Below are positions 26,311-43,648 of a DNA stretch of 64,000 nucleotides, piece by piece. Both the position numbers and the translations under genes were made by a program. The notes beneath the pieces were generated by a model, which saw only the letters and a program-made list of their open reading frames with translations, made no database searches and was not told the DNA's origin. Origin of the DNA: Bacteroidales bacterium (GTDB lineage: Bacteria; Bacteroidota; Bacteroidia; Bacteroidales; F082); assembly GCA_017477425.1 (NCBI GenBank), contig JAFUVT010000033.1, forward strand, positions 124,001 to 188,000. The letters are read 5' to 3'. Numbering within the stretch: position 1 is the first letter of the stretch; every line of letters begins with the position of its first letter.

Positions 26311-29300
26311 TTATCGAATCACGCTCACACGCTTCACACCCATGCCGTTTTCGGTGTAGATGCGAATCATATAGACACCCACTCCGAATGGACTCATGTT
26401 CAGGGTGGCTTCGTCACCGTTGGTTTCGGCATCGTAAACCACCTGACCGAGTTCGTTCACCACGGTGAGGCGTTGCATACCCTCGGCGGCCACGGTCACG
26501 TTGCCGTCGGTCGGGTTGGGATAGACGCTGGCGTTGATGCTGTATTCGCTGACATCGGTGGAGTTCTTCACAACGATGTTCAGCGTGCCGTTGCCGTTGT
26601 TGCATTCCGCAACAGGAGTGGCGGTCAGCACGACTTGGCCTTTGTATTCGTTGCTCCAGGTGACCACCACCGACTTGCCATCGTTGGCAGGGACCAGCGT
26701 GCCAGCTTCTTCAGGCTCGATGCCGTAAGCGACTTCCACATCGTTGCCGATGGTGTAGGTCGTGGTGGGCGTGAGGCGCACATCCAGCTCGGTGTCGCCA
26801 CTGATTTCGGGTTGGGCAGCGTAAGGCTCAACAAGGATGTTGATGGCTTGCTCAAGCGAGGTCTCACAGCCATTGGCGTCGGTGACCTTGGTGATGGTGG
26901 CATTCACCGTCTCGGTTGGGATAAATGTCATTGTGTAGCTTTCGCTTTCGGCAGTGAAGCCTTCCATGCCAGTGGCCTCCACGACGAACGGAGCTATGCC
27001 CGTGAAGCCGAAGTCGACACTTACTTCTTCGCCTTCGCAAATGCTTTCAGGTACTTCGCCGATGGTCATCGTTGGGGCGGCATTCACCGTGACGGTGAAG
27101 GTGCGTTCGCCTGTCTCATAATAAGTAGTACATGTGATGTTTGAAACCCAACTGACATTGAATTCATGCGTGCCGACTTCGAGTATGCCTAAGTCAAGTG
27201 CGTTGGCACCAGAATGGGCGTTTTGGTAAGGATGACCGGTAATGCCAAAGTTGAATTCGGGTTCGGCACCCCATGTTCCAGCTGAGCCACTCATGTTGAA
27301 GTTCATGATGGCATTTTCGCCTTCGCAAATCTCGATGGCATTGGTGGCTAAGGTCAATTCAGGCATTGGGTGCATTTCGAAAAGGTATGCAAATGACACT
27401 GGACCGCAACCTTCGCTTTGTGCGGTGGCAGTCAAAGTGACACCGTTTTCGATATCTTGGGGACCAGGAGTGTAAGTGGTGCTCAAAGCAGAAGCATCTT
27501 CAAATTCACCATCACCAGGAGTGCTCCAAGTGAAAGTCGAATAGTCGCCATTGACCGTAACGGCAATTTCTTGAGGCTGGCTGACAGCGCAATAGTAAAC
27601 ATCGAATAGCGCTTCATCTATACTTACATTCTCAGTGATGAACACCGTCATCTCGTCCGTCATCGTCTCGCCATTGCCGTTGATGGTAATCGTCAAAATG
27701 GCTTGGCCGTTGGCGATGTCTTGTGCTCCAGGCGTGTAAATCGGCATGGCAATAGTGGCATCGTCGAAGGTGCCGTCGCCGGAGGTGGTCCATTGCAGGT
27801 TGTCGTAGTTGGTGGCGTAGCCCACGATTTGGGCACCGCTGCCTTCGCAAATGGTGACGTCGTAGCCAGCAGTACCCGCCATGATACGAGCAGCCGGCAG
27901 GCTGAGGTAGTCAATCCAGCCGCAGTCGCTACCATTGTTCACGCTGCCGTCCTTGGTGTACGACCACTTGTAGGTGTGTCTGCCAGCGCTGACAGCGTAG
28001 GTGGCTTTGGTCCAACCCACCGTGCCCGACCATGAGCCTTGCTCGGCGTTGTCGATGTAGAAGTGGAGCTTGTCGTAGCCGCTTTCCGACGACACCTTAT
28101 AATAGAAGGAGATGGTGTCGTTGGATCCGGCTTCGTGGGTCAGGGTCAGGTCGGAGGACATGTTGCTCACGCCAGCACCACCGCTCTTCAGGCAGTATTG
28201 GCCTTCGTAAGGATCTACCATCACGAAGGTCCAAGGATACGAGGCGCTGTTGGTCCAGCCCTCGCCAAATTCGCCCGATTCAAAGTCTTCGAGGATGAGG
28301 CCGACTTTCACGCTATAGTCTTTCGCTTCGGAATAGCGTCCCGACGTGACATTCAGGATCATCGGGCAACTATAACCCAATGGCGTTTCGTCACTGATGG
28401 TAATGTCGTAGACTGCCGTTTGGGTTTCGCCTGCGTTCACGTTGTCGAAGTTAATCGCATTTTCGGCCAAAGTGATGTAAGGCGACAGAATTTGCATGGT
28501 GGCTGTGGTGGTCGCTGCATCGGCATGGCCGGTGTTTTGGATGCCGAAGCTGAGTTGTGCGGTTTCGCCAGCATCGAGACGTCCATTGCCGTTACCGTTC
28601 ACTTCGGTGATTTGAAGGTTGCCCAGCTTGAACACGGGTGCATAGGCTTTCATCGCCAAATTGCTGACATAACTCTCTGTGCCATTGGTGACAGTGATGG
28701 TGAAGCGATTGCTCGTATTGTCGGGCACGTTGTCGGCCACGGTGAATGCAAAGGCGTTCTCAAGGGTCTGTGTGGCGTTGGGGGCCATGCCGTCATATTG
28801 AGCCGTACCATTGGTGATGGTGATGTATTCCGATTCGGTCTCAAGCACGGCTTCGAAGGCTTCCATCGGGTCGCTACCCACGTTCTTCAGCGTGACGTCG
28901 AGATTGATGGTTTCGCCAAAGTCGAGTTGACCGTTGCCGTTTTGATCGTGGAGTACCTTGTCGTCGTAAACGATATACGGGCCATCGGCAGGGATGACAC
29001 CCATGACGGCTTCATAGCGCAGGTAGTTCTGGCCTGTCACTACGAGGTTGATTTCGGTAGGAGGCACTTGGGGCTCAAACTCGATGGTCTGAGGGTCGCC
29101 AGTGGCTTCAGCCACAGCGAGGATCTTCCATCCACCATCGCCGTCTGACTTCACGAGGCTGATCATGCAGCCTTCGGGAGCGGTGATGGTGATTTCACCT
29201 AAACCGGCGATGACGACCTCGGGATGGACAACTTCCATATCTTGGGGCACTTGCGTATAGATACGCAGGAACGCATCGCAGTGGGCGGTGAACATCGTAT

Positions 29301-31176
29301 AGGTGATGTCTTTCTCGGAAGGATTGCTCGGCCAGTTGCTTTGGGCCAAGAAATACTTGCCAGCCACATTACCGAAAGCCGGCATCCAGTTACCCGTGTT
29401 GCCAGCGTAGGGACCGAAGGTGGGCAGGAAGTCGCCGTCGAAGAGGTCATAAACGCCCCAAACATAAGCGTCGTTGACGAAGGAGTAGGAAGTTTCAGTA
29501 GGGCAGAGCACGCCGACGGCACCGGCATTCTCGCCGTTATAGGTGCGGCGCATCCATGCTTCACAGAAGCAGGTGGAGCCGTAGTTGAACTTACCCGTAA
29601 GGCAGTTGATGGACATCACGAAAGGCAGCTTGCCGACATTGTTCATTAGGTTGACGTGGGAGTTGCGCACTGCAGGTTCTCCCCAGCCTTCTTCCAAACC
29701 GTGGTCGCGGTGCTGCAACCAGAACGAGCCTTCGTTGACGGCTTGCACCACCTTTTCAGGAGTTCCGTTGTTCCAGTCGCCAAGTTCGCTTGGCGAGGCG
29801 GGGATGTAACCTACACCGTTGGGGCCGAAGTAGTTGACGACCATCGAGGTGTTTTGGTTCGATGACCAAATGCTGCCAGGTGTGCCTTGGTAGATGCAGT
29901 TGATACGATTGGTGTCATAGCCTTTGTTGCGCATGTAGCCGCCGAACACCTCGGAGCAAAGCTGGAACCAACGTTCGGTTTGCCAACCCAAAGCAGTGAT
30001 GGGACGAGCGTAGAAGCTGTGATCCAAATTGGGATTGGTATACTCGTATTCGATTTGTTTTCCAACGAAAACGGGCAGTTCATTGGCATTCTGCGCAATC
30101 AGGCGCGAGAAGACCATGTCGGGCAGGTTGTCGTTGCCCACGGCGTCGGCGTACCGGTTGTCAGTGATGCAGCTGCCTTGGTAGGGATGGGGGACGACCT
30201 CGGCAGGAATGTATTGGCCCATGTTGGAGCCGTGGTCACCGAGCAGGCAGACGGCAACAGGGGCGATTTCCCAGGTGTTGTAGGCATTGTGGAACCAGCT
30301 CTTCATCATTTCCGTGGTGGTGGCGGGCATCTCATCCAGGCGGTAAACCTTGGTGACGATGCCTTGACGGGTGCGGTATTCCTTCAGCTGGTTGGCATAG
30401 GGAGCCCAATCATCGTTGTTGGGCGTGACGATGATATACTCGGCACCTTCTTTGTCATCGCGCAGCCATTCTTGCATACGTTTTTCATAGTCGATGACGG
30501 GCAGCTGGTCGTAATTGAGCAACTCAGCGGCCAGGATGGGGTCCCAATAGGGCGAACGCAGACGGTCGTCACCGAAATGGTCAGTGCCGCCTTCAAAGCG
30601 CACCTCAAGCTCGATGTTGGTGTAGACCACCAAATCCTTGGTGACGGGATTGTATTGGAAGGGGGAAATGGTCACGGTCACAGCATCCACACCACGGATG
30701 TAGGAGTTGCCCAGGGTGAAAGGCTCGGCCGGATAAAGGGCGTTCTTGCTGTAGACGGTCACGTCCTTCACGTAGTTCAAGTCAGGCTCTTCGTTCTCTG
30801 TCTGGATGCGAAGGGCAGGGGCAATGTTCACGTTGTGGACGACTTCGGTCTCAAAGCTCACCACGCTGAGCGAGGCCGTGGCGCCTTGCGGAATCGCCAT
30901 CATGCGGCTCTCCATGGGGAGGTTGGGCAAGCCCGCGTCGTTGGGCAGGGTGATGGCAGAGATGCTGATTTCCGACATCTCCTCGCCGCGATAGTTGAGT
31001 TGGTTGAGCGACATCTGGCCGAGATTGTAGCTGATGTGCAATCCGCCACGGGTCTTCTCTGTCAGGTTGAAACCTTGCTTCCCTTTGAGGGGATAGCTGA
31101 AAGTCTGTGCCATTGACGTGTTGCCCATAAAAGCAAGCAACACAATGGCTAACGCAATTGGTAATGATCTTTTCAT
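26311..31176 (-). CDS. Gingipain-like C25 cysteine protease, T9SS cargo
   Basis: 1621 residues. A signal peptide ends GNTSMAQ. A C25 propeptide-like N-terminus (about 25-240) is followed by the protease domain with LLGDHGSN, QHRDHG (catalytic His near 490) and SINCLTGKF (catalytic Cys near 525). After it come Ig-like/CARDB-like modules, a 'cleaved adhesin'-type beta sandwich (ILEDFESGEF...GWIDYLSLP, about 950-1100), several Ig-like repeats and a C-terminal T9SS sorting domain (VYPNPTDGNVTV...VGVYMIRIYTENG...VSVIR). It should be secreted through the outer membrane and attached to the surface. It has its own promoter and lies downstream of the surface-protein operon. Confidence 0.92.
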   Translation of the reverse strand: MKRSLPIALAIVLLAFMGNTSMAQTFSYPLKGKQGFNLTEKTRGGLHISYNLGQMSLNQLNYRGEEMSEISISAITLPNDAGLPNLPMESRMMAIPQGATASLSVVSFETEVVHNVNIAPALRIQTENEEPDLNYVKDVTVYSKNALYPAEPFTLGNSYIRGVDAVTVTISPFQYNPVTKDLVVYTNIELEVRFEGGTDHFGDDRLRSPYWDPILAAELLNYDQLPVIDYEKRMQEWLRDDKEGAEYIIVTPNNDDWAPYANQLKEYRTRQGIVTKVYRLDEMPATTTEMMKSWFHNAYNTWEIAPVAVCLLGDHGSNMGQYIPAEVVPHPYQGSCITDNRYADAVGNDNLPDMVFSRLIAQNANELPVFVGKQIEYEYTNPNLDHSFYARPITALGWQTERWFQLCSEVFGGYMRNKGYDTNRINCIYQGTPGSIWSSNQNTSMVVNYFGPNGVGYIPASPSELGDWNNGTPEKVVQAVNEGSFWLQHRDHGLEEGWGEPAVRNSHVNLMNNVGKLPFVMSINCLTGKFNYGSTCFCEAWMRRTYNGENAGAVGVLCPTETSYSFVNDAYVWGVYDLFDGDFLPTFGPYAGNTGNWMPAFGNVAGKYFLAQSNWPSNPSEKDITYTMFTAHCDAFLRIYTQVPQDMEVVHPEVVIAGLGEITITAPEGCMISLVKSDGDGGWKILAVAEATGDPQTIEFEPQVPPTEINLVVTGQNYLRYEAVMGVIPADGPYIVYDDKVLHDQNGNGQLDFGETINLDVTLKNVGSDPMEAFEAVLETESEYITITNGTAQYDGMAPNATQTLENAFAFTVADNVPDNTSNRFTITVTNGTESYVSNLAMKAYAPVFKLGNLQITEVNGNGNGRLDAGETAQLSFGIQNTGHADAATTTATMQILSPYITLAENAINFDNVNAGETQTAVYDITISDETPLGYSCPMILNVTSGRYSEAKDYSVKVGLILEDFESGEFGEGWTNSASYPWTFVMVDPYEGQYCLKSGGAGVSNMSSDLTLTHEAGSNDTISFYYKVSSESGYDKLHFYIDNAEQGSWSGTVGWTKATYAVSAGRHTYKWSYTKDGSVNNGSDCGWIDYLSLPAARIMAGTAGYDVTICEGSGAQIVGYATNYDNLQWTTSGDGTFDDATIAMPIYTPGAQDIANGQAILTITINGNGETMTDEMTVFITENVSIDEALFDVYYCAVSQPQEIAVTVNGDYSTFTWSTPGDGEFEDASALSTTYTPGPQDIENGVTLTATAQSEGCGPVSFAYLFEMHPMPELTLATNAIEICEGENAIMNFNMSGSAGTWGAEPEFNFGITGHPYQNAHSGANALDLGILEVGTHEFNVSWVSNITCTTYYETGERTFTVTVNAAPTMTIGEVPESICEGEEVSVDFGFTGIAPFVVEATGMEGFTAESESYTMTFIPTETVNATITKVTDANGCETSLEQAINILVEPYAAQPEISGDTELDVRLTPTTTYTIGNDVEVAYGIEPEEAGTLVPANDGKSVVVTWSNEYKGQVVLTATPVAECNNGNGTLNIVVKNSTDVSEYSINASVYPNPTDGNVTVAAEGMQRLTVVNELGQVVYDAETNGDEATLNMSPFGVGVYMIRIYTENGMGVKRVSVIR

Positions 31177-31257: not shown

Positions 31258-31288
31258 CAAAAAAAAAGACGCGATTTCTCGCGTCTTT
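31258..31288 (-). terminator. Terminator of the seven-gene surface-protein operon
   Basis: The stem AAAGACGCGA/TCGCGTCTTT (31265-31274, 31279-31288) is followed on the minus strand by a run of T residues. It separates the last barrel gene from the C25 protease. Confidence 0.92.
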
Positions 31289-31312: not shown

Positions 31313-32191
31313 TCAATCATACTCTCCCCACTTCATGCAAGCGCCCTTCAGCTGCTTCTTCAGCGGGAACATGAGGGTGAGTTTCACGGTGGCATCAGTG
31401 TTGTACCTTTTGCCGAGCAGATAGGGGTCGATGTAGGCGGCGCCAATCACATGGCTGGCTTCGCCGTTAATCTCTTCTTTTGCGAACGAGTTGAAGACGG
31501 CGGCATGGGCGGAGGCATCCAGCTTGAGAAGCAGGTAATAGTTGCCCGTGTTGATTTTGAAAAGCACTCCGGCACCTGCCACAAGGCCCACATTCCAGTC
31601 GCGCAGGCTATGCGCATTCATGGCAACGGTGTCGATTGTGGCTCCCGTTTCGCTGAATTGTTGCTCGGGTGTGCCATAGTTCAGGATTTCTTTTTTTTGC
31701 CAGACCATCTTTCCAGAGAGGGGCAGGCTGAATCGCGGCCCGAGAAATACGTATGGCCTAACCTTGCCATCGCTTAGGTAGAAGGTCACGGGAACTTGCA
31801 CGTCGACTTCTTGATAGTCAACTTCATATTGCCTGTAATAGTCCTTGTTTTGGTTGAGCGCGACGGGAAAATTGAGCACGTCATAGTTGAGCTGCATGTT
31901 ACGCATTGCGAAGAGTCCTTCGAGGGCTACTGAGACATTGCGGCTCAGCATGCGCTCAAGGGCGAGGCCTGCCGTTGGTCCGTAATTGAACGAATAGTTG
32001 AAATCGGTCTCAGTACCACCAAAATGTATCCATTGGGTCATGGAGGCTCCGCCGATCAGCCCGATGTTGTATTTGGCCTCAGTGGTCATCAGATTCGAGC
32101 TCGAGTTGCTCAAGGGCTTGGCGAACTGCGCTCTGACAGGGCTGCTGACCAGGCCCATTGCGAATAGGATGATAAGGATATGGCGTTTCAT
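31313..32191 (-). CDS. PorT-like outer-membrane beta-barrel protein, paralog 1
   Basis: 292 residues. A signal peptide ends SSPVRAQ, followed by FAKPLSNSSSN and alternating amphipathic strands: EAKYNIGLIGGASMTQWIHF, GLALERMLSRNVSVALEGLF, RPYVFLGPRFSLPLS. It ends KGACMKWGEYD. This is the PF13568-like (PorT family) eight-strand barrel pattern. It is a clear paralog of the protein encoded at 35899 (shared AQF.KPL, EAK(Y/F)NIGL.GG, PYVF..PR and the C-terminal KGAC(M/I)KWGEYD). It is the last gene of the operon, 13 bp after a lipoprotein gene. Confidence 0.85.
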   Translation of the reverse strand: MKRHILIILFAMGLVSSPVRAQFAKPLSNSSSNLMTTEAKYNIGLIGGASMTQWIHFGGTETDFNYSFNYGPTAGLALERMLSRNVSVALEGLFAMRNMQLNYDVLNFPVALNQNKDYYRQYEVDYQEVDVQVPVTFYLSDGKVRPYVFLGPRFSLPLSGKMVWQKKEILNYGTPEQQFSETGATIDTVAMNAHSLRDWNVGLVAGAGVLFKINTGNYYLLLKLDASAHAAVFNSFAKEEINGEASHVIGAAYIDPYLLGKRYNTDATVKLTLMFPLKKQLKGACMKWGEYD

Positions 32192-32204
32192 GATAGGTTA
32201 AAAC

Positions 32205-33002
32205 TTAAGGTGCTGGAGTAGGACTGATGCGTAGCGTATCGCAGTCATAGACGACCAGGTCGCCAGGATAATTGTATAAAGGAAAGTCTTCGGGCAGGCT
32301 GGCACAATAACGCATGGTCTCAAACCCGAATTTGCAGTCGACCAGAATGGGCTGAATGAGTGTGTCGGCAGTTTGGCTTATCGTGTCTTGTTGGATCACC
32401 TGCACCGCCGATTTCCTTCCAGAAAGCACGATGGCATACAATGGCTTCAACTCAGTGTCGCGAATCTCATAGTAGTAAATCGTGAACCAAGGGTCATCGC
32501 CCATGATGTAAACGGTACCGAAGTCGTCAAGGCTGTGTTTGCCGTCTTTGAAATAGGATGGGGCAATGGTGTCTTCAGCAAAGGCATCCACTTGGTTTTT
32601 CATGAAGGCTTTGGTGGCTTGTGTGCTGTTGTGTTGGATGATGTTGTAAGTGTTCGTAAACTCAAGCTGTGCAATGCCGAAATGCTGTTCAAGTATGTCG
32701 AAGTAGATGTCGGAGGGAGGGACGGGAGTCGATGGCTCCCATTGGCTCTCGGCAACCGTGTCGAAGGTGTAGAGCTCGCGTTGCTTCGAGAGGAACAAGC
32801 CTTCGATTCTCGGCGGGTTGTCGCCATAATGGAGATACTCGTCGCCAAAGGCTTGCAGTAGCCTTTGGGGCATAAACTCGTTGATGTTGGGGATGTGCTG
32901 ATGGCTATAGAAGACGGTCGTGTTGGGGTCGTCTTTTAGGCAGGAGCTGAGAAGCATCGCACCGAAAAAGATGGTTACTATGCAGATACTGTGTTTTTTC
33001 AT
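32205..33002 (-). CDS. Lipoprotein of the T9SS-cargo operon, paralog 1
   Basis: 265 residues with lipobox MLLSSC. No named family recognised. It is a paralog of the lipoprotein encoded at 39266: both have I(N/H)E(F/V)MP..L near residues 40-50, an absolutely shared GDNPP motif, a central (Y/F)IMG..P(W/Y)FT.Y segment and a later (V/I)LSG segment. It starts 5 bp after the 935-residue T9SS protein, strongly suggesting co-translation and a shared function on the outer membrane. Confidence 0.78.
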   Translation of the reverse strand: MKKHSICIVTIFFGAMLLSSCLKDDPNTTVFYSHQHIPNINEFMPQRLLQAFGDEYLHYGDNPPRIEGLFLSKQRELYTFDTVAESQWEPSTPVPPSDIYFDILEQHFGIAQLEFTNTYNIIQHNSTQATKAFMKNQVDAFAEDTIAPSYFKDGKHSLDDFGTVYIMGDDPWFTIYYYEIRDTELKPLYAIVLSGRKSAVQVIQQDTISQTADTLIQPILVDCKFGFETMRYCASLPEDFPLYNYPGDLVVYDCDTLRISPTPAP

Positions 33003-33007
33003 TGTCC

Positions 33008-35815
33008 TTATTTTGTTAAGACGACTTTTCGTGTTATGGTTCCTTCTTTGCCTGAGGCGATGAAGAAGTATACTCCGTTGGACCGATGGCTCATGTCGTA
33101 GCTTCGCGCGTTGATGCCGTTGCCTATCCGAATCTCGTCGACGAGGATGCCGTGCATGTCATATACTTTGACGTCGACCTCACTGGTGAATTGTTCGAAA
33201 CGGAGTTCCATCTGTCCATTATTGGGATTGGGAAGTACGGTGAAGTTGGCTCGGGCGTCAAGGTTCTCGTCCACGTCATAGAACGAGCATCTCAGCCAAT
33301 AGTCGTTGATGGTCACCCCTCCAGTTGAGCAGCCGTTGTAGAGTGTAGCCCTCAGCCACACAAGGCCGTCGGTGTGGTTGAAGACGTATACCTTGCAGGT
33401 GTCGTTCTTGGCTCCGCTAGTTACCAGTCGCCAATTGAGGCCACTTTCCGTAAACTGACCCGTGATGGAGTCGTATTTGTTGAGTTGCCATGTCACGCTG
33501 TCGTAATCGGAGTGTTCAGGGTGCAAAGCATTTTTCTTGATGGCAAAGGTATAGGCGTTGGTTTGGAACTCATTGCCAGGGATGACCCATGGGGCAGTGG
33601 TGTTGTACAGCGCATGCACACGGCATGAGTCGGGCTCGTAAAGGATGGTGAGGTCGAGGTGCTTGATTTCGTAGCATCCGGTCTCGGGGTCGGCAATCGT
33701 GTCGCTGACCATTTGTGACTCATAATAGGTCTGGCCTGTCACGTCCCAAGTGTAGGAAAGGCAGGCATCCAGTACCTCGGGCTCGGTTTCGACAACGTTG
33801 CCCACGTTGAGGATGACTTCCGTGTAGCTATCACAGCCGTATTCACCAGGGAAGGCGACGATGGTGTCGTAAACCCCTGGATGGTCATAAGGAATGGTGA
33901 TGCCATACCCTTCATAAACATCGGGCCCAGTGAAGCAAACATGGGCTTCGAAGGGACCCATGTAGCCTGCCTCATGGGCGAGGATGTGGACGATGACGTT
34001 GCCTTTGCAGTTCTCAGGTAGGTTCGAATCGATAGGCCGGATGAGGATGGTGTCGCCAACAATGGGCACGTCAACAAAGCCGTGTCCCGTATAGGTCCTG
34101 CCGATGCAAGCGTTGTCGGTATATTCCTCGTCGTCTTCGCGACGGGCGTCGATGTAGAACGTGGTGACTTGCTCCGTTGAGGATGTGCAGGCTGTCTCGG
34201 CAGTGCGCACGGTGATGTTGACGGTATAGAATCCGTTGTCCGCGTAACTGTGTTGTACGACGCTTTCATTGCTGGTGTTGCCATCGCCAAAGTCCCAAGT
34301 GACGTTGTAGTTGCTATAGTTGACCTCGGCCCTGAAGACGATAGGCTCCAAAGTGCAGTTGACCACGGTGTCGCCTTCACTGACGCTGATGTCGTCGATG
34401 ATGATGGAGGTGCTGAGGTTGGCCGCCTTCGAGCCAGCCATGTAGGCGTAGCCACGGGCCATGCTGTATCCATAGATGTGGGCGTTGAATCCGCCTGGAC
34501 AGGAGATGTGATGAACCCCGTGTGTGATTTCTTTCCTGTAGAACTTGTATTCGTCGGTGCCATTGACGGCCTCGAAGAGGTTGGCGGCAATCTGTTCGTC
34601 GTCGAGGGTGACGTTGTCGGCATCATCTGCCTTGACGATGATGTTGACGAATTGGTGTTCAATGTCAGTATCGTGCTCGCTCTCGTAGTTGAAAGTCGAA
34701 AATGTCAGCTGATTGATACGTTGTTCCACAGGGGCAATCCACACCATGCTCGGCGCGCCTTGCCCTAAATTGAAATAGTCGTTGTCTTTTGAGTGGTTGT
34801 ACATGTACACGGCACAACTTTGTTCTGCGTCGATGAAACAGGAGGAGTTGTTCATTTCAAAAATGACGGACTCGCCGGCACTTAAAGTGTAGCTTGGCTG
34901 GCCGTTGATACTGATGCTGTTGTTGTCGTGAGCCGACGTGATTTTTACGAAGTCGTTGAGCTGTCGTCCCATCGAGGAGGTCGCCACGAACTGTTTTCCC
35001 CAGGCTTGCAGGGGCATGGCTTGCTCGAATATGCAATCGGAATCGGAACCGCTTGAAGGCACCATGGTCAGGTTGTTGCCATTGAAAACGGCAATTTTCT
35101 TGCAATCGCGGGCGGTGACGCGTGAACCGCTCAGGTCACGGCTGCCGTAGCTGTTATGGGAACGTATCTGATAGACTTCACCCTTGTGCAACGTGATGTT
35201 GAATTCTTGGTTGGCAGGATGTCCATCAAGGGTGTTGACACTCGGAGTGATGTCGACGGTGGTCTCGCCATCTTCGGCGGCAATGATAAGGATGGAACTA
35301 GTGTAGTAGTCGTCGTAATACAGACTCGATCCCGTTGATTGGTCGTAGGTTTGGATGAGGTAATCGTCGGCCAGGGCATGTATGGGGAGCACATAGGAGG
35401 CATCAAATGACATCTCGGCGATGTTGGCGCAATACACCGAAATGGAGTCGTTGGAGGTGATGACCAGGCCTTTGCCTAGGATCTGGCCATATTCGCTCAA
35501 TTCCATATAGGCCTCTTCCTCTGGGATTTCAAAGGTGTAGGTGTCGTTGGCCTCCACGGTGAAGTTGTCTTGATAGGCGGTATTGGGATTCTTGATTTGG
35601 CAATGCGTCTGTCGCTTTGCGCTGATAATCAGTTGGGTCCTGATCCATGTAAAGTCAATTTCTCCAGTCCAGGGGTCATAACGGTCCTTAAATCCGTTCC
35701 CCATGAACGAGACCCAAAACTCGGTGCCTTCGGTTGTGACGTCTTGGGCCACGACAGGCATCGAGCTGAAGAGGGCCGTCAAGGCCATCATGATGATAAA
35801 AACTCGTCTCTTCAT
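33008..35815 (-). CDS. T9SS cargo protein with IgGFc-binding-like and PKD domains
   Basis: 935 residues. A signal peptide ends SSMPVVAQ. The N-terminal ~430 residues resemble IgGFc-binding N-terminal domains (GTEFWVSFMGNG start, YVLPIHALADDYLIQTYDQ, ILIIAAEDGETTVDITPS). A PKD domain carries VTWDFGDGNTS (about 500-512), followed by CHU-type repeats, and a C-terminal T9SS sorting domain (LPNPNNGQMELRFEQF...NGVYFFIASGKEGTITRKVVLTK). It is probably a surface-attached adhesin or binding protein. It is first in the downstream module cargo, lipoprotein, barrel. Confidence 0.87.
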   Translation of the reverse strand: MKRRVFIIMMALTALFSSMPVVAQDVTTEGTEFWVSFMGNGFKDRYDPWTGEIDFTWIRTQLIISAKRQTHCQIKNPNTAYQDNFTVEANDTYTFEIPEEEAYMELSEYGQILGKGLVITSNDSISVYCANIAEMSFDASYVLPIHALADDYLIQTYDQSTGSSLYYDDYYTSSILIIAAEDGETTVDITPSVNTLDGHPANQEFNITLHKGEVYQIRSHNSYGSRDLSGSRVTARDCKKIAVFNGNNLTMVPSSGSDSDCIFEQAMPLQAWGKQFVATSSMGRQLNDFVKITSAHDNNSISINGQPSYTLSAGESVIFEMNNSSCFIDAEQSCAVYMYNHSKDNDYFNLGQGAPSMVWIAPVEQRINQLTFSTFNYESEHDTDIEHQFVNIIVKADDADNVTLDDEQIAANLFEAVNGTDEYKFYRKEITHGVHHISCPGGFNAHIYGYSMARGYAYMAGSKAANLSTSIIIDDISVSEGDTVVNCTLEPIVFRAEVNYSNYNVTWDFGDGNTSNESVVQHSYADNGFYTVNITVRTAETACTSSTEQVTTFYIDARREDDEEYTDNACIGRTYTGHGFVDVPIVGDTILIRPIDSNLPENCKGNVIVHILAHEAGYMGPFEAHVCFTGPDVYEGYGITIPYDHPGVYDTIVAFPGEYGCDSYTEVILNVGNVVETEPEVLDACLSYTWDVTGQTYYESQMVSDTIADPETGCYEIKHLDLTILYEPDSCRVHALYNTTAPWVIPGNEFQTNAYTFAIKKNALHPEHSDYDSVTWQLNKYDSITGQFTESGLNWRLVTSGAKNDTCKVYVFNHTDGLVWLRATLYNGCSTGGVTINDYWLRCSFYDVDENLDARANFTVLPNPNNGQMELRFEQFTSEVDVKVYDMHGILVDEIRIGNGINARSYDMSHRSNGVYFFIASGKEGTITRKVVLTK

Positions 35816-35841
35816 CTTGTATAGAATATGTATATTATATT

Positions 35842-35858
35842 AGGTGCATGTTGCACCT
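35842..35858. other. Small intergenic hairpin inside the operon
   Basis: The perfect stem AGGTGCA / TGCACCT has a 3-nt loop and lies in the 83-bp gap between the upstream barrel gene and the 935-residue cargo gene. No T-run follows on the minus strand, so it is not a terminator; it may be a processing or stabilising structure. Confidence 0.6.
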
Positions 35859-35898
35859 GATTCTTAACAGGCACAACAAAAAAAATACAGTTTCATGC

Positions 35899-36762
35899 TT
35901 AATCGTATTCTCCCCACTTGATGCAGGCGCCCTTGAGACGTTTCTTGATGGGCAGCATGAAGGTGAGCGTCACGTTTGCGTCGCTGATATAGCGCAAGTG
36001 GTTGAACTCGTTTTGCAGGTCGGTGGGGGTGAAGGTCGAAATGCCGTACATGCTGGCCGACACGTCGAGCTTAAAGATAAGGTAGTAATTGGCTGTGTTG
36101 ATCCTGAACTGGGAGCCGGCTCCCAAGGTGAGGCCCACATTGAGCATCTTGAAGGTGCTGTCGTTGATGAATGCGCTAGTCGTCCTCGAACTGATGGTGT
36201 CGAGGGTCTCGACATTCAGGTCGGTGGTGTTATACGTCATGAAGCCGTCGTTGAGGAGGTATGAAACACGAGGCGCGACGAAGACATAAGGCAGAATTGT
36301 CCTTTTCGAATTGATGGGGAAATAGAAAGTGAACGGTACGTAGGCTTCGATGGCACGGTAGCTCGCGGTCAACTCATAGTTGCGCTTGACGTACTGGTTG
36401 ATGCCTGTTGGGAAATGCTCGTTGTAGTAGGCAATACCCATGTTGTGCTGGGCGTAAAGGACATTCAGGCCGACTGACTGGTTGAGGCCATACATGTATT
36501 CCAACGCTAGTCCACCAAAGAATCCAAGTTCATCCAACTTGAGTTGTGGATGATAGTTGGCGAGATACCAATCCGATGCTTCTGCACCATGGAAATGCAG
36601 CATGGTGGTGAAGCTGCCTCCGCCAAAAAGGCCGATGTTGAACTTTGCTTCGCTGGATTGCACCCTGTCTCGGGGCGAAGTCAGAGGTTTCCTGAATTGT
36701 GCCGAAGCGCTGAAGCTAATCAAAGTGAAAAGGCTGAATGCCAGTATGATTCTTTTGTTCAT
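35899..36762 (-). CDS. PorT-like outer-membrane beta-barrel protein, paralog 2
   Basis: 287 residues from the ATG at 36762 (MNKRIILAFSLF). The signal peptide ends FSASAQ and the next residues are FRKPL. A GTG six codons upstream at 36780 would overlap the preceding stop (GTGA) but adds charged residues before the signal, so the ATG is preferred. Strands and C-terminus match the paralog at 31313, including the final KGACIKWGEYD. It follows the 814-residue cargo gene directly; in this module no lipoprotein gene stands between cargo and barrel. Confidence 0.85.
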   Translation of the reverse strand: MNKRIILAFSLFTLISFSASAQFRKPLTSPRDRVQSSEAKFNIGLFGGGSFTTMLHFHGAEASDWYLANYHPQLKLDELGFFGGLALEYMYGLNQSVGLNVLYAQHNMGIAYYNEHFPTGINQYVKRNYELTASYRAIEAYVPFTFYFPINSKRTILPYVFVAPRVSYLLNDGFMTYNTTDLNVETLDTISSRTTSAFINDSTFKMLNVGLTLGAGSQFRINTANYYLIFKLDVSASMYGISTFTPTDLQNEFNHLRYISDANVTLTFMLPIKKRLKGACIKWGEYD

Positions 36763-36776
36763 TGTAGTTTGTTTTC

Positions 36777-39221
36777 TCACTGAATAATGACGACTTTGCG
36801 GGTGATGGACCGACGGCTGTCGGAGATGACGAAGAAATAGATGCCCTGGGCAGAGGTCTTCATTTGATAGTCGAAGCCGTAGCTGTCGGGGTTGACGATA
36901 GTTTCGAAGGTGTCAACTTGGTTTCCGCTCATGTCGAAGACTTTGACGTTGACTTTCCCTTCCATCTGTTCGAAGCTGAGATGCATTTGGCCGTTGTTGG
37001 GGTTGGGTATGATGCTGACGTTGGCATCGTCACCGTGTTCGTCGACGCCGACATACGACGACTTGAGGTAGATGGTGAAGCTTCGATATTCTCCTTCGTC
37101 GAGGCAATCGTTCCTAACTTTGCAATTGAGCTCAACGAGGGCTTCGTCGCGGTCGGCCACATAAACTGTGCATGTGCTACTCCTCCTGTCGTTGCTCATG
37201 GACTGCTCAATGCGCCAGCTTTCTTTGCTGATGCTCCATTCACACTCGTCCCAGATGCTGCTCCCGACTTCGCTGACGGTAAAATCATAGTTGAACGAGA
37301 AAAACTCGGTTTCGGTAATCACCGCCACGATGTCGCCGTCTCTCAGGTAGAAGTCTTCGTTGCAACGGATTGAAGCAGGATTGGGGGTGAATTGCATGTC
37401 CTGCACCACGACGCGCATGGTGCTGTCGCAGCCATGAGTCGTGAGTCCGTTCAGAATCGCAACCGTGTCGTGGGTGAAGGTCAGAGTGTTGCCAAACCAG
37501 TCCATCAACGCTTCGTCGCAGCTGGGCGGGAGGATGCGTTCGTCGGAACCATTGGGATGGACGATGAAGCTCACGCTGGGATATTGGTCGATGATGCCGT
37601 CGCTGACATGGCATGTGTAGGTGTAGGAACCAGCGTCGAGTGAGACCATGGGATTCTGTGAAGAGGGATTGCCGAGGCCTGTGGTGGGAGTCCAGCTGTA
37701 TGTGTAGTTCCCTGTGCCTCCAGCAGGCAGGGCATGTAGGGTCGTGAATTCGCCTTCGCAAATATCGTTGTCGTCGACAACGGCTGTGGCGGTCAGGTTG
37801 GAGCCTGCCATAACGACGGTGAGCTCGGTCGAGTTGACGCAGTCGCCGTCGACGTTGGTGACGGTCACGGTGTAGATTTGGGTCTCAATCAGTTGGACGG
37901 TCTGGGTGGTTTGGCTGTCGGGGTCGGTCACCATGTCGGCGGGTTCCCAATGGTAGCTGAAGTTGCCTTCAGCGCCCGGGTCGACGGTGATGGTGGCCAC
38001 GCCGCCATATTGCACCGAGGCAGGAGTGGCGCTGGCTTCGGGTTCGGGCGTGGCATAAATCACGACCTCGGTGGAGCCCGAAGTGGTTTGGTTGTCGACG
38101 GTGGTGACGCAGGTGTAGGTGCCTGCCATGGCCATGGTGCAGTCGGAGAGGACGGGGTTCTGTTGGTTGGAAGTGAATCCGTCGGGACCAGTCCAGCTGT
38201 AGGTGGCGCCGGCTTGGGTGGTCACCGTCAGGCTGATGGTCTCGCCAGTGCAATAGGGGCCGTCGTTGGTGGCGATGCCGGGCAAAATGCCACAGTCGGT
38301 GGTGCCTGGACCAGAGCCCTCGGTTTTAGTGAACGAAATGGTACAAGGTTGGCGCGAATAGTTGGTAATCATCAGGATGAAATACTCACCCATTTCAGGC
38401 ATGTGCTCGTTGATGGTTTGGTGGTCTGCTTGGTGATGGTGTTCACTTTCGGGATAACCCAAATAAATGTCTTCGGAATAGGAAGAAGAATAGTTGCAGT
38501 CGATGATTTTGTCTGTTGTCAATTGGGCCACACAGGGGGAAATGGGGTCGTCGTAAGGGCCCCACATGCAGAAGTCAATGTCTCGATCGTAGTTGGTGGT
38601 GGGATCATGACCTTCCATGTGGATAATGAATTGTCCAGGCGTGTTGATTCTCATGTGGAACCAGGCTGGACTATAGGAAGAACCGATGCAACCATCTTCC
38701 AGCGTAGTACCTTCAAGTTGGTTCGCTGTTTGTTCGGAAGTGGCGGCGTCGAAGGTGATGACATCTGACGTGCAGAAGGGGTCGGAATCGACGCAATGGT
38801 TGTTTTCGCGAGTGGCACGGCTGAGCGAGATGTCCAACATGATTGAGGTGAAGGCAGTGGGCGGTACGCTGGATTTCCATAGGGGGAAGAGGTCGATGAT
38901 ATCCTGTTTCGTCAAGAACGAGAAACCGTCGAGTGTGTTGTCGTAGAACGCATCGAAGGCGTCCAAGAAACCGTTGTTGGGTTGGTCGTCGACGGAGGTG
39001 ACGACAAACTGCCCGTTTTCTCCCTCAGGAATCAAGGCGAAACGGTCTTCTTGGCTCAGTTGGTATAACAAATAGAGTCTGAAGTCGACGTTGTCGATTT
39101 CAAAGAAGTTGAGCTGAACACCGTCGTTTGAATAGGCATGGTAGGGCGATTGTGCTGTCATCTTCAGTGAAGTGACCATCAGCATCAGTGTAGCGATGAG
39201 AAGTATTTTGGATTTTTTCAT
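36777..39221 (-). CDS. T9SS cargo protein B with Ig-like/CHU domains
   Basis: 814 residues with a signal peptide (MVTSLKMTAQ). The N-terminal ~330 residues are paralogous to the 1146-residue protein upstream: shared REN(N/T).C...DPFC, DIDFC.WGP..DP.SPC, GEYFILMITNYSRQPCTISFTK and an Ig-like PYCTGETISL domain. It has one HGCDST repeat near 560 and a C-terminal block (SIWDECEWSISKESWRIEQ, CTVYVADRDEALVELNCKVRN) almost identical to the paralog, then a T9SS sorting domain (IIPNPNNGQMHLSFEQME...IYFFVISDSRRS). It is presumably surface-exposed. Confidence 0.88.
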   Translation of the reverse strand: MKKSKILLIATLMLMVTSLKMTAQSPYHAYSNDGVQLNFFEIDNVDFRLYLLYQLSQEDRFALIPEGENGQFVVTSVDDQPNNGFLDAFDAFYDNTLDGFSFLTKQDIIDLFPLWKSSVPPTAFTSIMLDISLSRATRENNHCVDSDPFCTSDVITFDAATSEQTANQLEGTTLEDGCIGSSYSPAWFHMRINTPGQFIIHMEGHDPTTNYDRDIDFCMWGPYDDPISPCVAQLTTDKIIDCNYSSSYSEDIYLGYPESEHHHQADHQTINEHMPEMGEYFILMITNYSRQPCTISFTKTEGSGPGTTDCGILPGIATNDGPYCTGETISLTVTTQAGATYSWTGPDGFTSNQQNPVLSDCTMAMAGTYTCVTTVDNQTTSGSTEVVIYATPEPEASATPASVQYGGVATITVDPGAEGNFSYHWEPADMVTDPDSQTTQTVQLIETQIYTVTVTNVDGDCVNSTELTVVMAGSNLTATAVVDDNDICEGEFTTLHALPAGGTGNYTYSWTPTTGLGNPSSQNPMVSLDAGSYTYTCHVSDGIIDQYPSVSFIVHPNGSDERILPPSCDEALMDWFGNTLTFTHDTVAILNGLTTHGCDSTMRVVVQDMQFTPNPASIRCNEDFYLRDGDIVAVITETEFFSFNYDFTVSEVGSSIWDECEWSISKESWRIEQSMSNDRRSSTCTVYVADRDEALVELNCKVRNDCLDEGEYRSFTIYLKSSYVGVDEHGDDANVSIIPNPNNGQMHLSFEQMEGKVNVKVFDMSGNQVDTFETIVNPDSYGFDYQMKTSAQGIYFFVISDSRRSITRKVVIIQ

Positions 39222-39265
39222 GGCTCAAAGATTATGATTAAAACACATGAGTAATAATAAGCCGA

Positions 39266-40024
39266 CTATTGCTCCAGGTGCATGTTGTAATAAGCCGTGT
39301 CATAAGGCAGGATATTGCGGGCGTCATAGATGAACATGTCGTGAATCTCGGGTAGACCGCTGATGCCTTGTTGCGGCGATGTGTAGCTGTATCCTTCAAC
39401 ACGCATGCCCATGCGGAATTGTTCGATGCCTTGCGGTGTCACCTTTCCTGAGAGGATGATACTCTCGTTCATTTCGATCTCGTAATCAGTGATATAGGGT
39501 ATCATAGATTCATTACCCACCTCACGTTTGACCACTTGATTAAAGTACGCGGTAAAATAAGGGGCTTCGCCCATGATGAATATGTCGTTGTTCACGTTGG
39601 CATATTCATGGAAATAGGTGCCTAAGTATGGCTCATAACGGTAGTCGCGCACATAGGAGTACTTCTCGGCGACACCGCGGTGTTGTCCAAAAAAGGCATA
39701 GCTGAATCGGTTTTCGTATGAAGCCGATTCTTTGAAATAGGGACTGTTGGGATTGTAGTCGGTGTTGTGGATGAAGGCGGTCAGATACAGCGAGTCGATA
39801 TAAAATGGGGTGGTAATCACAGGTGGGTTGTCGCCAAAGTAGAGGTGAGCCGAGTCCATGGCCATGATCAGGTCAAGAGGCATCACTTCGTGGATGTCGG
39901 GGATGACCTGAAGGGCGTAGTCCAAAGGATGGTTGCCTGCATTATCCGGAGCTTCTTTCTGGCAAGCTGTGAAGGCAAGTGCGGCTACAAGACAGATGGA
40001 AATCAGATGAAGGTAAGTTTTCAT
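39266..40024 (-). CDS. Lipoprotein of the T9SS-cargo operon, paralog 2
   Basis: 252 residues with lipobox LAFTAC. It is paralogous to the lipoprotein encoded at 32205 (IHEVMPLDL, GDNPP, FIMGEAPYFTAYF, IILSG). The family is unnamed to me. It lies 21 bp after the 1146-residue cargo gene and 44 bp before the 814-residue one. Pairing with a T9SS cargo gene in both modules suggests it binds, anchors or assists that cargo. Confidence 0.78.
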   Translation of the reverse strand: MKTYLHLISICLVAALAFTACQKEAPDNAGNHPLDYALQVIPDIHEVMPLDLIMAMDSAHLYFGDNPPVITTPFYIDSLYLTAFIHNTDYNPNSPYFKESASYENRFSYAFFGQHRGVAEKYSYVRDYRYEPYLGTYFHEYANVNNDIFIMGEAPYFTAYFNQVVKREVGNESMIPYITDYEIEMNESIILSGKVTPQGIEQFRMGMRVEGYSYTSPQQGISGLPEIHDMFIYDARNILPYDTAYYNMHLEQ

Positions 40025-40045
40025 TCGTTCGTAAAATTAAAGAGA

Positions 40046-43000
40046 TTACTTGGTGACAACGACTTTTCTCGTAACCGAACGCTGGTTGTCGGAAATAACG
40101 AAGAGATAGAGGCCTTCGGCATACCGCTTCATGTTGTATTCGTAGCTGTGTTGGTCACTGTTGACATTGGTCTCGAAGGTGTCAATCATGTTACCCTTCA
40201 TGTCGAACACCTTGACGTTGATACGTCCTCTCATCTGTTCGAAGTTGATCCACATTTGGCCACTGTTGGGGTTGGGTATGATGTTCACCATTGTGTTGTC
40301 GGCTGCGAGTTCCTCAACGCCGACGTACGACGACTTGAGGTAGAACGTCTGGATCTTGTATTCGTTAGGTTCCATGCAATTGTTCCTGACCTTGCAGACG
40401 AGCTCAACCAGGTTGTGGTCGCGCTCGGCCACATATACCTTGCAGGTGCTGCTCTTGTGGTCGAGGCTCATCGTTGGCTCGATGCGCCACGAGGGCTTGC
40501 TGATGCTCCATTCGCATTCGTCCCAGATACTACGGCCTTGTTCGGCGATGAAGAAGTCGTAGTTGAAGGAGAAGAACTCGGTCTCGGTGATCACGGAGAT
40601 GGTGTCGCCGACGACCATGGCGTTGGCGTCGGTCGACTGAATATGGGTCGGGTCGGGCGTGTATCTCATGTTTTGCACCACCACACGCATGGCCGTGTCG
40701 CAGCCGAAGGTCGTTGTGCCCTCGCTGAAATTGTACGTGCCGTTCTCGACGATGTGCGGATTGGAGCCGAACCATTCGAAGGGCACTTCATCGCATTCGT
40801 TGTTGAATTGCAGCACAGCGTTGGTGTGCGAGTTGTGGAGCGTCAGGTGGAGACGGTATTCCTGCGAGCACGGATAGGGTGCCATCGAGACGGAATGTGA
40901 ATACTCGCCAGAGCTGGTGTAGGTTTGTCCGTTGACGGGCCAGTAATACGAGTCGCACGCGTCGTCGACGTAGGTGTGTTCCGCTTCGGGAATCTGTTGG
41001 AAATGCAGGTCGAGACGATAGATGCCGTCGCAATCGTTATACGGAAGGGTGTCTTGCACGAAGATGTCGTCATGATAGGTGACTCCGTTGACGTCCCATG
41101 TGAACGAAGGCGTGTCTTGGTAGCAAACGTATTCCGTCTGGACGGGTGGGATGTAATAGTCGCTGACGCTCAGGATAACGATAACGGTGCTGTCGCAACC
41201 GTGCACGTCGTCCAAGTGGAAGTAGTGGAAGCCTTCATACAATGGTATTTCGTAGGGGTCTTCTTCGTAGTAATAGGGCAGCTGGCTCGGACAGACGGTC
41301 ACAGGGTGCTCCGTCTCGCCGTTGTTGTCCCAAACGGTCAGGTTGAGGCGCACGATACTGTCGCACCCGTGGATGGTTTGGTCGGTGTGGGAAGTCACGA
41401 TGGAGCTGTTGTAGGTCGTGCCGTAGAAGGTGTATGTCTCGCCAAAGCAAATGGCAGTGTCGATGACGGTTTCATCGAAAGTGGGGTAGTTGTCCAAATG
41501 GAGGTAAATGGTCTTTTCACAGCCTTGGTCGGTGACGGTGTCAAAACTGTAGACTCCAGTGCCAGTATAAGGCGAGCCGTGCCATTGATAGATTTCGTCA
41601 GGGCAGATGGTGGCATATTCGTCTTCGACGATGATGTCGTTGACGACGACGGTGACTGAAGCCGAGACGGTTTGGTTGGTCTGCGGGTTGGTGACCGTGC
41701 AGGTGTAAGTGGTGGTTTGTGTTGGGCTGGCAATAGGGTTGTAGATGTTGGGGTTGCTGAGGCCTGTAGTGGGCGTCCATGAATAGGTGGAGTTGCCCAT
41801 GCCGCCGCCCGCATTGGCGGTGAGTTGGGTGCTGCCGCCCATGCAGATGCTACTCGGATTGGCGTTGACCGAAACAGTAAGGGCGCCACCGTTGATGTGT
41901 ATCGTCACTTGGTCGGAACTGGTGCAGCCGCCTTGCGAGTTGGTCACGGTGAGGGTGTAGGTCTGGTCGGCAGTAAGTGCTACGGTTTGCGTGTTTTGAG
42001 CGTTGGGGTTGACCACCATGTTGGCGGGCTCCCAGTGGAAGCTGAACGAGCCAGCGCCACCGCTACCGCTCAGTTGGGTCGACGTGTTGTAGGGGATGGT
42101 TTGGTCGGGACCGGCATTGGCATTAGGAGAAGCGTAAACGGTGACTTGCTTGGTAATCGAGTTGGTGCAGTGACCATTGCAGTTGACGGTGAGGGTCACC
42201 GAGAACGTGCCGGCGTTGTTGTAAAGGTGTGTGGGGTTTTGTTGTGTCGAGGTCTGTCCGTCGCCAAAGTTCCATTGGTAGCCGCTGATGGTCTGTCCCG
42301 AAGGATTGGTGGTAGAAGTGCTCGTGAACTGTGTGGCCGTGCCTTGGCAAACGGTAGTGAAGTTGAAGTTGGCCGTGGGTTGGGGGTGGACCACCACTTC
42401 GGTAGTGGCGCTGTTGGTGGCGCTGCCCAAGGTGATGGTGCAGGTGTAGGTGCCGGCCATGGCCATAGTGCAGTTAGGACGCGTGGGGTTTTGTTGGTTC
42501 GAGCTGAAACCGCCAGGACCAGTCCAACTGTAGGTAGCACCTGCTTGACCGTTGGCGGTCAGGTTGATGGTTTCGCCCACGCAGTAGGGGCCGCTGTTGT
42601 CGACCAAAGGAGGCAGGATGTCGCAGTTGGTGGTGCCAGTGCCTGCCACCTTACTGAAGGAAATGTTGCACGATTGGTTGGAATAGTTGGTAATCACCAA
42701 AATGAAATAATCACCCGTTTGTGCCGAGGCCGGAATCAGGCAGTGTTCGGTGGCACTGGCAGAGTAGCTGCAACTCACCACTTTGTCACTCGTCAGGCCG
42801 TTGGGGCAAGGTGAGGTAGGGTCGGCAAAGGGTCCCCAGCAGCAGAAGTCGATGTCGTGGCTCGGCGTGCTGTACATATAGATGTCGATGTTGCCTGGGT
42901 TGTCGATTTGAAGGTAATACCAAGCGGGATTGGGCTGTGAATAGAGGCAGCTATAGTCAGGCCCCGCTTCACCAGATCCGGCATTCACGCCAGCAGGGAA

Positions 43001-43486
43001 TTGGTACATGCCGTTGTCGGTGCAGAAGGGGTCGGCGTTGGCGCAAGTGTTGTTTTCCCTCGAGCGGATGTAGATATCCATCATCATCGATGCTGTAAAT
43101 TCGTTGGGTAACGCGTTTTTGTATTCGCGAGCAACTACAGCGGCTTGTTCCTTGTCCATCCTTGAAAAATCGATGGCGTTCTGATGACGGAAGTCGGCAA
43201 ATGAAGCTCCCAAGTCAATGCCTTCATAGGCCTCGTCGGCACTGATGACGAAAACACCGTCGCGTTCACCGTTGATGACATCGAAACGTCCGTCAGTCAC
43301 CAAATTGTATATAAAAAAGACTCGTTCGTCAAAAATGGCTATGTCGGTCACATCAAACTCGATGACGGATTGATTTTGAAGGACTCGTGGCTGTTGTGCG
43401 AAATGCCTCGTGGGCAACAGCATGGAAAACATAACTAGCAGAATTACTTCCGCGAATCTGTTCTTGAACAAGGATTTAGTATTCAT
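40046..43486 (-). CDS. T9SS cargo protein A, large multi-repeat surface protein
   Basis: 1146 residues. A signal peptide ends RHFAQ. The N-terminal module shared with cargo B includes DIDFCCWGPFADPTSPC and DYFILVITNYSNQSC. Then come an Ig-like domain (PYCVGETINL), a PKD domain (YQWNFGDGQTS, about 398-408), CHU-type Ig domains (TYSWTPTTGLSNP), and four roughly 70-residue repeats ending in (H/Q/F)GC(D/E)(S/K/T). A block SIWDECEWSISKPSWRIEP is shared with cargo B, followed by the T9SS sorting domain (IIPNPNSGQMWINFEQM...KVVVTK). It is the first gene of the operon and likely an adhesin-like protein. Confidence 0.88.
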   Translation of the reverse strand: MNTKSLFKNRFAEVILLVMFSMLLPTRHFAQQPRVLQNQSVIEFDVTDIAIFDERVFFIYNLVTDGRFDVINGERDGVFVISADEAYEGIDLGASFADFRHQNAIDFSRMDKEQAAVVAREYKNALPNEFTASMMMDIYIRSRENNTCANADPFCTDNGMYQFPAGVNAGSGEAGPDYSCLYSQPNPAWYYLQIDNPGNIDIYMYSTPSHDIDFCCWGPFADPTSPCPNGLTSDKVVSCSYSASATEHCLIPASAQTGDYFILVITNYSNQSCNISFSKVAGTGTTNCDILPPLVDNSGPYCVGETINLTANGQAGATYSWTGPGGFSSNQQNPTRPNCTMAMAGTYTCTITLGSATNSATTEVVVHPQPTANFNFTTVCQGTATQFTSTSTTNPSGQTISGYQWNFGDGQTSTQQNPTHLYNNAGTFSVTLTVNCNGHCTNSITKQVTVYASPNANAGPDQTIPYNTSTQLSGSGGAGSFSFHWEPANMVVNPNAQNTQTVALTADQTYTLTVTNSQGGCTSSDQVTIHINGGALTVSVNANPSSICMGGSTQLTANAGGGMGNSTYSWTPTTGLSNPNIYNPIASPTQTTTYTCTVTNPQTNQTVSASVTVVVNDIIVEDEYATICPDEIYQWHGSPYTGTGVYSFDTVTDQGCEKTIYLHLDNYPTFDETVIDTAICFGETYTFYGTTYNSSIVTSHTDQTIHGCDSIVRLNLTVWDNNGETEHPVTVCPSQLPYYYEEDPYEIPLYEGFHYFHLDDVHGCDSTVIVILSVSDYYIPPVQTEYVCYQDTPSFTWDVNGVTYHDDIFVQDTLPYNDCDGIYRLDLHFQQIPEAEHTYVDDACDSYYWPVNGQTYTSSGEYSHSVSMAPYPCSQEYRLHLTLHNSHTNAVLQFNNECDEVPFEWFGSNPHIVENGTYNFSEGTTTFGCDTAMRVVVQNMRYTPDPTHIQSTDANAMVVGDTISVITETEFFSFNYDFFIAEQGRSIWDECEWSISKPSWRIEPTMSLDHKSSTCKVYVAERDHNLVELVCKVRNNCMEPNEYKIQTFYLKSSYVGVEELAADNTMVNIIPNPNSGQMWINFEQMRGRINVKVFDMKGNMIDTFETNVNSDQHSYEYNMKRYAEGLYLFVISDNQRSVTRKVVVTK

Positions 43487-43568: not shown

Positions 43569-43576
43569 CAAATATA
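43569..43576 (-). promoter_or_regulatory. -7 box for the T9SS-cargo operon
   Basis: TATATTTG on the minus strand, 82 bp upstream of cargo A. It is the only TAnnTTTG I found upstream of the seven-gene run, so the operon probably starts here. Confidence 0.65.
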
Positions 43577-43614: not shown

Positions 43615-43648
43615 AACGAAAAAAAGCGACGTAAAGCCGCTTTTTTTT
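43615..43648 (-). terminator. Terminator of the rnf operon
   Basis: AAAAGCG/CGCTTTT-type stem (around 43620-43628 and 43638-43646) with a 9-nt loop and a T-run on the minus strand, 26 bp after the rnfA stop. Confidence 0.8.

Follow-up and report, generated by a model that had tools for sequence, protein, structure and literature searches.

The question raised by this locus is what a lipoprotein and a predicted outer-membrane barrel do beside a T9SS cargo, since all three kinds of protein are encoded together in one operon of the window (the whole 64,000-nucleotide stretch of DNA that was analysed). Type A cargos of the T9SS are thought to be released or joined to lipopolysaccharide. An earlier note on this DNA had described seven consecutive minus-strand genes from 43486 to 31313 with gaps of 83 bp or less, and the list of open reading frames confirmed both the place and the spacing; from cargo A to barrel 2 the gaps were 21, 44, 14, 83, 5 and 13 nt. 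The operon and its borders were mapped as follows.

43619..43647, minus strand: terminator-like hairpin plus T, at the end of the upstream rnf operon
43569..43576, minus strand: TAnnTTTG promoter-like box, TATATTTG, exact match, 82 nt before cargo A
40046..43486, minus strand: cargo A, 1146 aa, with signal peptide, N-terminal block common with cargo B, Ig/PKD repeats, pre-CTD domain and type A CTD
39266..40024, minus strand: lipoprotein 1, 252 aa, lipobox FTAC followed by QKEA
36777..39221, minus strand: cargo B, 814 aa, with pre-CTD domain and type A CTD
35899..36762, minus strand: barrel 1, 287 aa from ATG (an alternative GTG start is possible at 36780), PF13568, C-terminal tail GACIKWGEYD
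33008..35815, minus strand: cargo C, 935 aa, with IgGFc_binding (PF17517), PKD, pre-CTD domain and type A CTD
32205..33002, minus strand: lipoprotein 2, 265 aa, lipobox LSSC followed by LKDD
31313..32191, minus strand: barrel 2, 292 aa, PF13568, predicted 8 strands, C-terminal tail GACMKWGEYD
31265..31288, minus strand: terminator-like hairpin plus T, after barrel 2
26311..31176, minus strand: neighbouring C25 (gingipain family) peptidase with type A CTD, from Pfam and the maps of relatives' loci

The terminator proposed past the last gene was recovered as the hairpin-plus-T at 31265-31288. The two border hairpins had the longest stems, and terminator-like sites in total did not exceed the number expected by chance. 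The box proposed before the first gene was an exact TAnnTTTG match, but as a promoter signal it counts for little, because such boxes were over-represented in the 64-kb window (47 against 25.6 expected) and no TTTG was found at the usual -33 spacing upstream of it; a promoter before cargo A is plausible. An Rfam search of the window gave no match. In many relatives the C25 peptidase gene was the next gene after the barrel of the module locus, with a gap of 18–21 nt in some; the peptidase is possibly an associate of the module, co-transcribed with it in relatives where the gap is short.

The T9SS sorting domains ascribed to cargos A, B and C were found by PF18962 and TIGR04183 above cut-off. 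The sequence blocks that A and B had been said to share were borne out by 59% identity over the last 249 aa and by N-terminal similarity; the N-terminal block (about 150–290 aa, with FCT, PAW and DIDFC.WGP motifs) has no Pfam model. Cargo C, for which the earlier note reported no such likeness, matched A over the last ~190 aa (31% identity, E 1e-23), a similarity made up of the CTD plus a domain of about 100 aa directly before it. This pre-CTD domain, likewise absent from the earlier note, is common to all three cargos and is without an existing family model; a sequence search of solved structures with it gave no match. The domains lie at the following positions, the bit scores being those of a module CTD model trained with the window and its closest relatives held out.

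40310..40597, minus strand: pre-CTD domain of A, profile E 1e-28, from the alignment
40055..40282, minus strand: type A CTD of A, module-specific subtype, 106 bits
37035..37325, minus strand: pre-CTD domain of B, profile E 6e-27
36786..37013, minus strand: type A CTD of B, 105 bits
33263..33589, minus strand: pre-CTD domain of C, profile E 1e-26
33020..33235, minus strand: type A CTD of C, 93 bits

On the held-out model the next best of the ~25 other source-genome CTD cargos compared scored 48 bits. The source genome has a second module locus, on C23, consisting of two cargos, a lipoprotein and a barrel, and its cargos scored 37 and 39 bits, as ordinary CTDs do; the CTD subtype therefore belongs to the lineage of the window and not to every module. 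PF18962 gave 133 CTD matches in the source genome (a 2.98-Mb assembly of 39 contigs), in which a single type B CTD and a single PorP exceeded the cut-offs. Seven proteins among the ~130 T9SS cargos matched the pre-CTD profile, five of them at the two module loci, while the other two (C12:260-263 kb, L100) had no lipoprotein or barrel adjoining. This orphan pair (L100:7993-13085; C12:260-265 kb) stands near porU/porV, and a similar pair in L197 stands beside the same flippase-like gene. Among 393 genomes sampled from the order, the pre-CTD domain was present in six, five of which had the lipoprotein too; over so few, kin-related families this co-occurrence gives support and not proof.

The two lipoproteins are paralogous, as had been proposed (26% identity, E 6e-14). 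Pfam matched none of 23 members of the family that were scanned. The predicted structure of lipoprotein 1 is a beta-rich domain (pLDDT 88), for which the best hit of the fold search was not a confident one (nitrobindin, E 0.05) and the sequence search of solved structures gave nothing credible. The lipoprotein export signal of Capnocytophaga canimorsus is C-X-K-(D/E)2-X (PMC5080379). Lipoprotein 2, with CLKDD, fits C-X-K-(D/E)2 fully and lipoprotein 1, with CQKEA, in part, the signal being that of C. canimorsus and perhaps not that of this genus. Lysine at position +2 after the lipidated cysteine was present in 53 of 66 module-type lipoproteins compared with 5 of 23 other lipoproteins at the same loci. 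To judge from this export-signal-like N-terminus, which the earlier note had not remarked on, the lipoproteins are likely surface-exposed.

In the order sample the lipoprotein family occurred in 33 of 393 genomes and 21 of 206 Bacteroidales genera, and the family search found it mainly in the genus of the source genome. Outside that genus it was seen with barrel and cargo (L102, L106), with a barrel only (L103, L105, L108) and alone. A spread so far beyond the genus, often without cargo, indicates an old and wide family, whose pairing with T9SS cargo is typical of the genus and a few relatives. The domain was also seen at the C-terminal end of an astacin-like protease (L126:8535-10370), joined to DUF4988 (L110:9088-10407), preceding an Lcl_C domain (L115:9055-10611) and as the last part of a 696-aa lipoprotein without Pfam match (L107:9254-11344). 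Lipoprotein matches in L063 and L064 were discarded as profile drift, as the first search had matched mainly the signal peptide and there was neither a barrel nor a pre-CTD cargo. L050, where a lipoprotein has a short CTD protein as its neighbour and there is no barrel, was not accepted as a full module and was taken for a remnant or another kind of use.

The barrels proved paralogous (38% identity, E 3e-62), but their description as PorT-like did not carry over: against Pfam and NCBIfam both gave generic PF13568 matches only and no NCBIfam match, in libraries that possibly hold no PorT-specific model. Barrel 2 was predicted to have 8 long strands (pLDDT 81), its fold search returned OmpW, OmpA and OmpX, and a sequence search of solved structures with the barrel gave no match. 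The last strand of barrel 2 ends near residue 276 and is followed by a tail of ~16 residues predicted to be disordered. In this tail, and in that of barrel 1, lies a cysteine that had escaped the earlier note.

35923..35925, minus strand: codon of the C-terminal tail cysteine of barrel 1, Cys280, sole cysteine of the mature chain
31337..31339, minus strand: codon of the C-terminal tail cysteine of barrel 2, Cys285, sole cysteine of the mature chain

All 63 distinct barrels that are complete and have no OmpA domain had a cysteine in the last 24 residues, where ~6% would be expected from the frequency of cysteine in the rest of the chain; since the 63 rows are kin, the count is one of conservation and not of independent events. 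In 40 of the 63 no cysteine but this one, usually within C-x-x-W, occurred beyond residue 25. In L106 the cysteine sits in the last strand, which leaves 62 proper tail cysteines. By inspection, PorV, PorP, porin O/P, a PagL-like protein and three small barrels had no cysteine after the last strand; this control set, small and chosen by a simple filter, comprised outer-membrane proteins in ~0.46 Mb of the source genome. Five relatives (L104, L105, L108, L115 and L117) were of 414–449 aa and lacked the cysteine tail. An OmpA domain was present in the three that were scanned (L104, L108, L117), and L105 and L115 were assigned to the OmpA type from their length and similar C-terminal ends.

Linkage of the three genes was followed by a public-genome scan with the barrel clade ending in WGEYD. 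It yielded 39 loci, and they all stem from uncultured Bacteroidales or Bacteroidia, for the most part of rumen or gut and including Candidatus Limimorpha equi. A lipoprotein gene lay just upstream of a barrel in 39/39 of these loci and a pre-CTD T9SS cargo was adjacent in 38/39, the exception being a 3.9-kb contig. The finding method, which used the barrel, has no bearing on the presence of lipoprotein and cargo beside it; when the lipoprotein was used instead, nearly all loci had an adjoining barrel and T9SS cargo. The module is thus conserved across the genus. The association of lipoprotein with T9SS cargo on which the earlier note had staked its module stood within the genus (38/39 loci) but did not extend to the family outside it, whose members are often without cargo or barrel.

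Of the 78 barrels in all fetched loci, 68 had a lipoprotein no more than 400 bp upstream and 66 a pre-CTD cargo at a distance of up to 3.5 kb. Ten barrels had no near-upstream lipoprotein. In one, L053, the called start of the barrel overlaps the lipoprotein ORF, which was read by hand from 9858; six belong to multi-module operons, including barrel 1 of the window, whose lipoprotein is one gene further upstream; and in three of the OmpA type (L104, L115, L117) the lipoprotein follows the barrel or is separated from it by one gene. Gene order was cargo(s), lipoprotein, barrel at several chromosomal positions, the neighbours (named by inspection) being rnf/C25 peptidase, lpxB to a 703-aa gene, gdhA to a Bat-like gene, lepA, and alaS. 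In L154:9941-14684 extra barrels are each paired with a pre-CTD cargo and have no lipoprotein of their own; one lipoprotein may there serve several barrels.

In the trees barrel 1 and barrel 2 belong to separate clades, each of 11 rows and well supported (98 and 99), and lipoprotein 1 and lipoprotein 2 to two clades (99 and 95) that largely match those of the barrels. Most relatives have a locus of one type only; both types are joined in the operon of the window and in the relatives L045, L156 and L158. The matching clades, with one type in most relatives, uphold the earlier proposal that the set arose by duplication of a module. On these trees, the operon of the window is a joining of two diverged module lineages and not a recent duplication. 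Mirror-tree comparison of lipoprotein and barrel distances gave r = 0.79 over 36 pairs, and 0 of 2000 permutations reached this r; at the level of sequence, the correlation shows that the pair moves together and says nothing on physical contact.

The source genome encodes PorV and two copies of PorU, the latter as tandem sortase genes between GldJ and PorV (C12:248939-255717, L191), each of which keeps His and Cys (YIGHGG/GTCEFS and YVGHGG/ATCEFS). It also encodes PorK (GldK/PorK), with cysteines in RAFC and NAKGC whose spacing is that of GldK Cys285/Cys343 within two residues and which are probably their equivalents. GldJ (TIGR03524; C12:246.7-248.1 kb, L199:1072-2562) scored 459.9, just above the curated cut-off of 458.2, and hints at a track of the gliding type; an oral survey recorded GldJ from just 3 genera (PMC11705866). 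Liu et al. (2025) found the C-terminal tail cysteines of SprF and PorG disulfide-bonded to GldK Cys343 in the moving track of F. johnsoniae; PorG is predicted to be 8-stranded and in P. gingivalis has one tail cysteine only, and the cysteine of GldK/PorK is invariant (PMC12635249).

Taken together, these results were read as two co-located copies of a surface anchoring module for type A T9SS cargo. The T9SS would export A, B and C, as their signal peptides and type A CTDs and the encoded PorV and PorU suggest. PorU would then cut off the CTD, as in the known type A pathway, and leave the pre-CTD domain as the new C-terminus. This domain would dock on the lipoprotein, itself flipped to the surface by way of its export-signal-like N-terminus, and the 8-stranded barrel would hold the lipoprotein; from the operon, the gene order and the co-evolution we infer that cargo, lipoprotein and barrel are together in one complex. 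In the last and least certain step, the periplasmic tail cysteine of the barrel would link the complex by a disulfide to PorK/GldK, so that the cargo is held firmly and perhaps moved; in other families an OmpA peptidoglycan-binding domain, fused to this barrel, would anchor it to the wall instead. For this explanation we estimate a probability of roughly 0.55. A surface complex that holds type A cargo and is neither of the SusCD nor of the PorP kind is, as a claim on its own, quite probable. Against the anchoring and track model count the orphan C12 cargos, the ordinary CTDs of the C23 cargos, the strand cysteine of L106, the partial signal of lipoprotein 1, the lone lipoproteins and the absence of a specific barrel match to PorG or SprF.

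Since PorG and SprF are bonded to GldK through their tail cysteines and PorK and GldJ are encoded here, the tail cysteine of the module barrel may bind the track. By this analogy a disulfide from barrel to PorK/GldK is a tentative proposal, and the same caution applies to a second, independent track-linked surface complex made up of type A cargo, lipoprotein and PorK/GldK-bonded barrel, while in sister lineages the barrel is fixed to peptidoglycan by way of its OmpA domain. It is doubtful, though to be taken seriously, that the complex is instead a static anchor at the surface, its tail cysteine forming barrel-barrel or other disulfides with no link to the track. Disulfide-linked OmpA oligomers are known in Bacteroidota, from P. 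gingivalis and T. forsythia (PMC12635249), related barrels bear OmpA peptidoglycan-binding domains, and these uncultured bacteria may not be motile; the tail position, the lone cysteine and the 8 strands, however, are closer to PorG, and PorK and GldJ are both present in the source genome. Type B systems are either mobile (SprF) or static, the latter with the peptidoglycan-binding PorE (PMC12618676; PMC9143113), and the Cys-tailed and OmpA-fused barrels look like this choice repeated in another protein family.

The distinct CTD subtype of A, B and C would also suit a role in secretion and not in anchoring, in which the barrel (with the lipoprotein) replaces PorV as a dedicated shuttle. Side-by-side pairs of cognate CTD and shuttle are the rule for type B (PMC12618676), PorP/SprF serving type B CTDs. 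Known shuttles, however, are 14-stranded FadL-type barrels (PMC9143113), whereas the module barrel is predicted to be 8-stranded and has no TIGR03519 match; the ordinary CTDs of the C23 module cargos and the presence of PorV in the source genome also speak against a shuttle, and this explanation is unlikely. Least probable is that lipoprotein and barrel are co-regulated envelope factors for regulation or folding outside any surface complex, which would agree with the many lipoprotein relatives that stand alone, but not with the adjacency of lipoprotein at 68 of 78 barrels, the co-evolution of the pair or the export-signal-like lipoprotein N-terminus.

If the anchoring module is real, a subset of type A cargos would have a lipoprotein-barrel holder as a third fate. 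Should the tail cysteine bind PorK/GldK, a further family of outer-membrane proteins would join SprF and PorG in the disulfide-to-track mechanism described in 2025, and uncultured rumen and gut Bacteroidales could carry mobile, mechanically driven surface proteins; a true track link would raise the question of whether uncultured gut Bacteroidales glide or move surface proteins. The module also points to a lipoprotein domain outside every Pfam model.

A limited literature search found no published description of the combination of cargo, lipoprotein and barrel. The combination was compared with its nearest known parallels. SusC/SusD likewise pairs a surface lipoprotein with an outer-membrane protein, but the module has a small barrel in place of a TonB-dependent receptor and its lipoprotein lacks a SusD fold or Pfam match; SusCD was ruled out on the lack of a TonB receptor or SusD Pfam match in the operon. 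In SprB-SprF of Flavobacterium johnsoniae a large T9SS-exported surface protein stands, as here, beside a dedicated barrel with a C-terminal tail cysteine. The CTD of SprB, however, is of type B, and SprF is a 14-stranded barrel of the PorP family with a Cys-X-Cys tail, whereas the module has type A CTDs, a PF13568 barrel predicted to be 8-stranded with one tail cysteine, and a lipoprotein as a regular member. TIGR04131 (type B CTD) matched none of A, B and C, which matched TIGR04183 only, and TIGR03519 (PorP/SprF family) matched neither barrel; on these results membership of PorP/SprF was ruled out. The Pfam and NCBIfam models gave no specific match of the barrels to PorG or SprF beyond the generic PF13568. 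PorG resembles the module barrels as an 8-stranded outer-membrane protein with a cysteine in its periplasmic C-terminal tail, and their single-cysteine tail is that of P. gingivalis PorG and not the twin-cysteine motif of F. johnsoniae; PorG is a single core component of the T9SS, whereas the module barrels are multi-copy and linked to cargo and lipoprotein genes. PG1035-PorP-PorE of P. gingivalis is likewise an anchoring complex of cargo, barrel and lipoprotein (PMC9143113). It differs in its type B CTD and in the FadL-type barrel PorP, and PorE is periplasmic with TPR, propeller and OmpA domains, unlike the module lipoprotein with its surface-export-like signal; the OmpA domain of PorE nevertheless parallels the OmpA-fused relatives of the module barrel (PMC9143113).
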